Source: Microtetraspora malaysiensis (GTDB lineage: Bacteria > Actinomycetota > Actinomycetes > Streptosporangiales > Streptosporangiaceae). Taken from it: a stretch of DNA of 64,000 nt. Made by a program: the position numbers and the translations under genes. Position 1 is the first letter of the stretch, and every line of letters begins with the position of its first letter. The stretch spans positions 1-64,000 of the forward strand of contig NZ_BBYJ01000016.1 in NCBI RefSeq assembly GCF_001528665.1. The letters are read 5' to 3'. This document shows positions 6,793 through 18,751 of this stretch, piece by piece. The notes below the pieces were generated by a model. That model saw only the letters and a program-made list of their open reading frames with translations, searched no databases and was not told the DNA's origin.

Positions 6793-9700
6793 CTAGCGGG
6801 CCGGATGGCGGGGGCCGTGGCCCGGTGGTGGGATGAGCGGGGTCCGGTATGGCTTTCCCCCGTCGATGGCGTCCTGCATCGCTTCGTAGACCTCCAGGAT
6901 TAGAAGCTTTGTGCGGTATTCGCCGAACTTAGCCTCGTCCTTCCGCTTGACGATCGGGAACGTCTCCATGATGTAGTCCACGTCGTCCCGGGCGACTCCG
7001 TAAAGGTGGAAGAACGCCGCATCAAGCTCCGCCCGAATCAGTGCCCGTCGCTCTTCGTCCCATATGAAATGCATGCCATCGTATCCCAGCGCCGAGGCCC
7101 AAGGTTTCATATGCTTGTTCGTATATGTCAGCTCGGCCACATGGGGTGAAAAGTCTTCCATAAGGAAGTTTCTAATTTCGGGTATCGGCGTCTGCGACAT
7201 TATGGTCACGTTGAAGTGCTGTCCTGGGGTTTTCAATTTCGCCATATAGTCATAGGCGAAAGAGTTGATCGCGGCGAGAGCCCAGGCTTGCAGCATCGGG
7301 CGATCCTCAACGGAGAAGCCGTTAAGCGGCTGAATCGGTGCGGTGCGAGGAACGACTGTGGCGATCGCCGTATGCGCATCGGTCGCTCGTACGTAATCTC
7401 TGACCACTAAAATCCAGTCATTCATCTCACCCTTTCTGGATAGGAATTCGTCGACAATGATGCGAGGTGCATAGAAACGCGGCTGTGCTAGATATGCTTT
7501 ATTGGCGATGGGGACTTCGGCGGGTTTTCCTTTCTGTCGACTTTCCTTCGTCGCGTCCGCGTAGCTTGCAAAGGCTGAATCGAATTGATGCATCATCTTG
7601 CCCTCGAAAAGGGCTATATTGTCTGTACTGAAATCCTCCTCATAGTGATGAGAGAATCCTTCGGATGTGAAGCCGACCCAAGGCTTCACCGAAAGATGTG
7701 GCCTGGCTTTGCGTGACATTTGGAGTAGTAGCTCCACGTCGTGGCGGGACTTGCATATAGGAAGCTGTTTAGTAATAGGGTTCAGCTCTTCGAGATCGGT
7801 CAGTGGAAATTCGTACACTCGGTCCGGGTTTACTAGCTCTTCTTTTGTACGGATATAGACGCCGACCCGCAAGTTTTCTTGATCGCTGGTAATCGATCCG
7901 CCGGTCATCGTCAGGAGCGTGAACTTGGTGGATCGATGGACCGCAGGGAAGATCCCTTCGCTGTTTTCTATGTCCAAGATCCCCTTTATGCGCCGTTTTT
8001 TGCGTAGCCATCCCCAGAATTCCTTCATAGGGATTGCGGTTAGTACTGACGTGGGTACGATGAGGCCGATTCTTGCTTGTTCGGATACGAGTCTAAGCGT
8101 TAGTTCTGAAAAAGGGCCCTGGGTGGCCAAACGGCCTGCTGCAGTGAGAGGGTAGAGAGAGGATTCTGAAATGAGTTGGGAAACCTCCGCCCGTTCCCGG
8201 CGGGTGGTGGTGTAGTCCTTGTGGAGAAGGCTGTCGCCGAGAATTGCCTTGCTAATATTTCTCTTTCGTTCAGCAGTCGTAGTTGCTTCAAGCACCCAAG
8301 GGGCGCGCGAAGCAAAGTACTCGTCATCGTCAAATGCAATACGTTCCCATGGGGGATTCCCGAGGACACAGGTGAAGCCGCCTTCCCAGCCGGTGTTGGT
8401 GCTGACATCCGCACCGGAGCCGCCAACGCGGAAGACCTCGGGGAACTCAAGGTGCCAGTGGAAGAAGCGGTATCGCCCGATCAGCCTCCGCAGTTCCTCG
8501 GCACGTTCAGGTGCCAGTGAGGCACCGCTTTCCAGGCTGCGGATGGTTGCTGTGGTGATTACCTCGGGCGCCTCAGTGTGCTTGCGCCAGACGAATGCGG
8601 CACACCAGGCGTCGGCAACCCGGCGAGCCTGGATGAGGGCTTCGGAGTTCTCCAGTTTGCGAAAGCGCCGCTCCTGCTCCCGGACATCGGCGACGCTGGA
8701 CACCGGCATCGTGGCCAGAGCACGAGCCGTTTGGGCGAGCTTCTCGTAGCCCGGAAGCTCGGCCTCATCGAACAGCGCCTCCTGCCCTCCACGGCGTGTG
8801 CCGCTGGACTCCCGCGATGCACGCTGTATCTCGCGCGCGTTCCGCTTCTTCAGTTCGCCCGCGACGCTCTTGTCGTCGCCTTCGATCGGCTTGAACGCGC
8901 CGTCGGGGATGCCGGCGGCGATGAGCCTTGGGGTGGCGCCCAGGAGGGCGTTGCCGACCTTGATGTGGGCGTCGAGGAACGCCAGCGGCTTTCCGGGCTC
9001 CAGCGACTCGATCCACAGCGACACCTTGGCCAACTCGGCGGCAAGCGGGTTGATGTCCACGCCGTAGATGCACGCCGCGACGACCTTGCGCATGGCCTTG
9101 CGCACGGCCTTCGGCACCGGCTCGTCCTCGCCGGTGGCCATCGCCGCATATCGCTTGGCGATCCGCCGGGCTGCGGCGACCAGGAAGTGGCCCGACCCAC
9201 AGGCCGGATCGCAGACCGTGATCTTCAGCAAGTCGTCGGCCACACCGGACTTCGCGTGTTCGTCAATGACTGGGTTGAGCGCTGTGTCCAGCAGCGACTC
9301 GATCAGCGAGCTGGGTGTGTAGTACGACCCCGTGGTCTTGCGGTCGTTCCCGGAGACCTTCTCCCGTAGCTCGAACTTCGGGCCCATGCCATTGGATTCG
9401 GCGTACGGCACGAATTGCAGCAGCGACTCGTAGACGCTGCCGAGCTCCTCAGCCCCCAGGTGCTGGTAGTCGACGTCGCGAGGGCGGCCGTCCTTGGCCC
9501 GGACCGTGCACATCTTCCGCACGGCCGTGAGCAGCGCCTCATTGGGGAGGTCGCACCACAAGAGCTGGTCCGGGCGGGGTTCGCCGGTCAGGACCCGCGC
9601 GTCGCTGGCCGTACGGAAGAACAGGCCGCCGAGGCCGGGCAGGGCTAGCGCGGGGAGGCCGTTGTCGTCGCCGAGGGCAGCGATGACCTTCGCGATCGTC

Positions 9701-18751: not shown

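Follow-up and report, generated by a model that had tools for sequence, protein, structure and literature searches.

A probable ARMADA Type I antiphage locus with an ArmD homologue and McrBC genes in Microtetraspora malaysiensis

The window analysed here is a stretch of 64,000 nt from M. malaysiensis (contig NZ_BBYJ01000016.1). Three large ORFs lie on its minus strand in the order armC, armA and armB; the protein names ArmC (gene 1), ArmA (gene 2) and ArmB (gene 3) follow the ARMADA preprint of Bell et al. 2025 (bioRxiv, September 2025, PMC12458937). The armC gene (13583-18751) was assigned with Pfam and PADLOC to the YprA-family DUF1998 helicase-nucleases and encodes 1722 aa, counted from the conserved MDVFQVHE start. 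It is followed by armA (10731-13586), encoding a SNF2/RapA/BrxHII-like helicase of 951 aa that is related to DrmD, and armB (6793-10734), encoding a PglX/DrmMI/Eco57I-like adenine-N6 methyltransferase of 1313 aa. Both junctions, armC with armA and armA with armB, are 4-nt ATGA overlaps, in agreement with the original prediction that the three same-strand genes at 6793-18751 form one transcription unit. The Pfam domains likewise bear out its description of a DUF1998 helicase-nuclease, a SNF2 helicase and a PglX/DrmMI-like methyltransferase; ArmA carries SNF2 and Helicase_C domains, and ArmB an Eco57I/N6_Mtase domain with the motifs DPACGSG and NPPW.

Beyond armB, on the same strand, are an ApeA-like HEPN gene (5251-6606, between armB and mcrB), mcrB of the AAA+ GTPase type (3027-5084) and mcrC (1807-3030), the last two being regarded as accessory genes. 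On the other side of the trio, an armD-like gene (18948-21041) is transcribed divergently from armC on the plus strand, and GmrSD lies at 21245-23116. An ORF scan recovered the trio and the McrBC, ApeA and GmrSD neighbours that had been listed in the original prediction; overlooked there was the divergent ArmD homologue, whose full length can be aligned with the E. coli ATCC 8739 ArmD (701 aa, 34% identity). The likely start of armD is the ATG at 18948, found behind a GGAGG, and the automatic ORF call starts at 18888. The starts of armC and armD are 196 nt apart, and three relatives that share this layout have a spacing of 189-216 nt.

In ArmC, Pfam places a DEAD domain at 17936-18469, Helicase_C at 15710-15931 and MZB/DUF1998 at 14045-14332, the MZB match scoring 39.5 bits, and the OB-CON-DUF1998 module of ARMADA Type I is present. 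Pairs of putative zinc ligands are found ahead of RecA2 (CREC/CLRC) and in the OB region (CAEC/CDEC), which agrees with the description of Type I (PMC12458937). The nuclease-like end originally predicted for this helicase corresponds to a C-terminal PD-(D/E)xK domain of Vsr/DUF559-like type (13586-13930, minus strand) with the motif LER...PDF...FVDGPHH. This motif is intact, so that the window ArmC has the predicted active Vsr-type C-terminus that is a feature of Type I. DUF559 was found in 20 of 21 ArmC homologues and MTES_1575 in 17 of the 21, and Vsr (1vsr) was among the top PDB profile matches for the region, all of them weak. The active-site residues of the Vsr-like domain are degraded in three Type I relatives (loci L044, L200 and L206). 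AlphaFold models of the two ArmC halves were poor (pLDDT 43.5 and 53.6, from 8 sequences each); the low-confidence model of the C-terminal half matches MrfA (6znp) with a Z score of 10.9, and its LuxS and channel matches were regarded as unspecific. For the BrxA-like helical insert that Type I proteins have after RecA1, the PDB profile search gave no match, and the models are of low pLDDT.

The original prediction had presented the locus as a candidate new defence system. However, the same three parts in exactly this gene order have been named and published as ARMADA Type I, in which a YprA-family helicase with a C-terminal Vsr-type nuclease is followed by a BrxHII-like helicase and a PglX-like methyltransferase, with Actinomycetota as the main hosts (PMC12458937). 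The window shares with this type ArmC (YprA with Vsr nuclease), ArmA (BrxHII/RapA-like) and ArmB (PglX-like), and differs from it by the divergent ArmD homologue and the downstream McrBC genes. The phylogeny agrees: in a FastTree analysis of 77 ArmC/DruE proteins, in which long branches were flagged, 68 Type I rows were separated, with one change each, from eight Type II rows and DruE with 100% SH-like support, and the window ArmC lies inside Type I. The nearest relatives of the locus belong to the Streptosporangiaceae. No other published name for this gene set was found in literature searches.

Conservation of the trio in other genomes, proposed as a check on the prediction, was also found. 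The order ArmC-ArmA-ArmB is kept, mostly with no gene between, in 33 of 39 compared loci (one of them an E. coli Type II comparison), from Actinomycetota, Deinococcota, Chloroflexota and Alphaproteobacteria, and within the host order every one of the 36 ArmC loci read has the trio intact. As this order recurs across several phyla, the trio is far more than a chance association. It is reversed in two loci, from Chroococcidiopsis and Thermus, and a reversed order is known for cyanobacteria (PMC12458937). ArmC itself was detected in 23 of the 396 genomes sampled from the phylum and in 40 of 201 from the order. Plasmid MP1 of Deinococcus radiodurans R1 also carries a Type I locus (L039, 19946-23497), where ArmB may be broken because it is annotated as two genes.

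Three other known systems were considered. As the original prediction noted, ArmA and ArmB resemble DrmD and DrmMI, parts in common with class 1 DISARM, and a class 1 DISARM with replaced parts would account for these two genes. In the window, however, the helicase and DUF1998 are joined in a single unsplit polypeptide with a fused nuclease, DrmA, DrmB and DrmC were absent from the neighbouring ORFs scanned, and ArmA scores 295 bits against the NCBIfam DrmD model, below its cut-off of 610; we consider this reading very improbable. The predicted closeness of the large helicase to Druantia and MrfA holds in that the best PADLOC matches of ArmC are DruE models (317 bits) and in the MrfA match of its model, and DruE is, like ArmC, a large unsplit YprA-family helicase with a C-terminal nuclease. 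Yet these matches cover only parts of ArmC, which separates from DruE in the tree, the SNF2 helicase and PglX-like methyltransferase genes are no part of Druantia, and scanning of neighbouring ORFs revealed no further Druantia genes, so a Druantia built on DruE has even less to commend it. The full-length match of ArmA to the PADLOC model PDLC02853, labelled DpdE (966 bits), would point to a 7-deazapurine (Dpd) system, which we judge the least credible of the three; the NCBIfam DpdE model gives 194 bits against a cut-off of 500, and among the neighbours scanned there were no 7-deazapurine biosynthesis (dpd) genes. With no Dpd genes nearby, the label of PDLC02853 seems to be wrong, the model having probably been derived from ARMADA ArmA proteins, and PADLOC surveys may score ARMADA Type I as Dpd. 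In view of gene content and the curated cut-offs, we reject filing the locus under DISARM, Druantia or Dpd, and the prediction that it is neither DISARM nor Druantia stands. An assignment to ARMADA Type II was likewise rejected. The Type II systems of E. coli NCTC 12900 and ATCC 8739 comprise four homologous proteins, including a RelE-GajB-like ArmD, the best conserved of the four, but their genes run A-B-C-D on one strand and their ArmC of 2113 aa forms a distinct clade; in the window, ArmD does not follow ArmC in such an order, and ArmC falls outside the Type II clade.

The locus is therefore very probably, judging from its sequence, an antiphage system of ARMADA Type I that carries accessories, its Type I core being joined by ArmD and McrBC. 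What had been a candidate new system is thus better placed as a refinement within a class already described, probably with gene content that has not been described for it.

The ArmD-like protein is predicted to be a RelE-like N-terminus fused to a UvrD/GajB-like helicase, the RelE call coming from homology to E. coli ArmD and from weak matches of an N-terminal profile to RelE3 and YoeB. It has a higher identity to its E. coli Type II counterpart than the trio, 34% versus 22-27%, the trio alignments being partial. ArmD-like genes are frequent, occurring in 161 of the 201 genomes of the host order, many of which have an unlinked copy; presence alone therefore says little, and it is the position that counts. 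The host has a second ArmD-like gene (G000:C15:228898-230976, L104; 41% identity) that is unlinked to ArmC, and similar copies (about 41-42% identity) are found in many genomes of the order. Several of the ArmDs in the phylum sample that are not near Type I adjoin a Type II ArmC, and in the ArmD tree the Type I-linked ArmDs adjoin actinobacterial Type II ArmDs. The ArmD located inside the operon of locus L046 falls in another branch of this tree, so more than one origin is probable for the linkage of ArmD to Type I. In its main text, the ARMADA preprint assigns ArmD to Type II only (PMC12458937), and as a companion of Type I ArmD seems to be new relative to that text, supplements aside.

The linkage of ArmD and McrC to ArmC was determined in 37 genomes of the host order that bear ArmC, after exclusion of three more that had fragments only or a weak match. 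In 18 of the 37 genomes ArmD is found no more than 20 kb from ArmC (19 of 83 genes), and in 19 McrC is found within 20 kb downstream of ArmC (19 of 30 genes), against 0.60 and 0.20 genes expected under uniform placement, a model that ignores the clustering of defence genes and is corrected only in part by the HsdR and GmrSD controls. Both genes are near ArmC in 11 of the 37 genomes and either of them in 26. As the genomes are related, these counts are not independent events.

A plain Type I trio, sharing its island by chance with ArmD, McrBC and ApeA as independent defence genes, would also give such an arrangement. ArmD and McrC are each absent near about half of the ArmC loci, and ArmD is not obligatory, since it is not near ArmC in 19 of the 37 genomes; its position varies (divergent, after McrC or, in L046, inside the operon), and among the loci compared ApeA was found only in the window, plus a fragment in L031, and is probably not a fixed part of the system. 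Against chance association, the same 37 genomes have none of 48 HsdR genes and only one of 12 GmrSD genes (that of the window itself) within 20 kb of ArmC. The geometry of McrC is moreover constant, always downstream of ArmC and on the same strand, and ArmD follows McrC by merely 20-150 nt in five genomes. We give the independent-gene explanation appreciable weight, although we rather doubt it. The link between McrBC and the Type I trio is itself already known, as a canonical McrBC beside a DISARM-like cassette was reported by Bell et al. 2024 (PMC11090510) and again in PMC12458937. That cassette has McrBC next to YprA-SNF2-PglX, as in the window, and the passages on it do not mention ArmD, which the window has. 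On plasmid pNOCA01 of Nocardioides sp. JS614 (L040), DISARM drmA/drmB and an ARMADA Type I with McrBC are located within 25 kb, and McrB overlaps ArmB by 4 nt.

The surroundings of the locus were also examined. The tRNA-Lys reported by ARAGORN at 23271-23346 consists only of the 3' part of this tRNA, and further 3' fragments of tRNA-Lys are present at 44708-44778 (44731; tRNA-Glu according to ARAGORN) and 48312-48358, with intact copies elsewhere in the genome (C4, C16:105776 and C33). The fragments are possible attachment-site scars, and because of them past integration of an island at tRNA-Lys is suggested; integration of ARMADA islands at other tRNAs has been described (PMC12458937). No integrase was detected among the ORFs scanned. 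The end of the contig has an IS3-type transposase ORF (165-1085), and positions 1-24000 of the window matched no Rfam family.

A related branch carries an additional domain. Twenty-one ArmC proteins have a Ser/Thr kinase at the N-terminus, encoded in the same open frame as the helicase (loci L045, L063, L189-L196, L198, L199, L201-L203, L207, L209, L210 and L212-L214). They form a separate supported subclade of Type I; the window ArmC has no kinase domain. The five of these proteins that were scanned match Pkinase with E values of 1e-38 to 1e-48, all 21 have HRDLKP and DFG motifs and nearly all have VAVK/VALK, and a true fusion is supported because L189 lacks an internal start Met. The word 'kinase' does not occur in the main text of the preprint (PMC12458937). 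The fused kinase may provide a phosphorylation switch. In this it is reminiscent of PglW, the kinase of the Pgl/BREX type 2 system.

Antiphage activity has been reported for Type II only; in E. coli, protection depends on all four genes as well as on the Walker A and NPPW motifs and is non-abortive, the cell surviving (PMC12458937). Because the trio shares little sequence identity with its E. coli Type II counterparts, these experiments transfer by analogy only. By that analogy, ArmB would mark the host's own sites as self by adenine methylation, and ArmA, a SNF2/RapA-like translocase, would act together with ArmC on phage DNA that is unmarked or abnormal, which would be unwound and cut, ArmC working as a YprA helicase with a DUF1998 canopy and a Vsr-type nuclease. 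The cell would be expected to survive this cutting, as published for the E. coli system. ArmD, a UvrD helicase bearing a putative RelE-like RNase domain and here presumably made from a divergent promoter, could extend the response, and the downstream McrBC could act as a second layer that cuts DNA with modified cytosine, so that a phage escaping through modification of its DNA would meet it.

Tentatively, and with somewhat less than even confidence, we propose that the trio, ArmD and McrBC act together in actinomycetes as a single modular immune supersystem. ArmD would have been exchanged between the two ARMADA types, a Ser/Thr kinase fused to ArmC would add a level of control in a related branch, and the window would be a fully equipped form lacking the kinase. 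Many Type I loci are accompanied by ArmD, an essential component of the E. coli Type II system, and McrBC is often present as well. This raises the questions of whether ArmD is a shared effector or a regulator of both types, and whether ARMADA and McrBC jointly block phage DNA, unmodified as well as modified, as two layers of one barrier.
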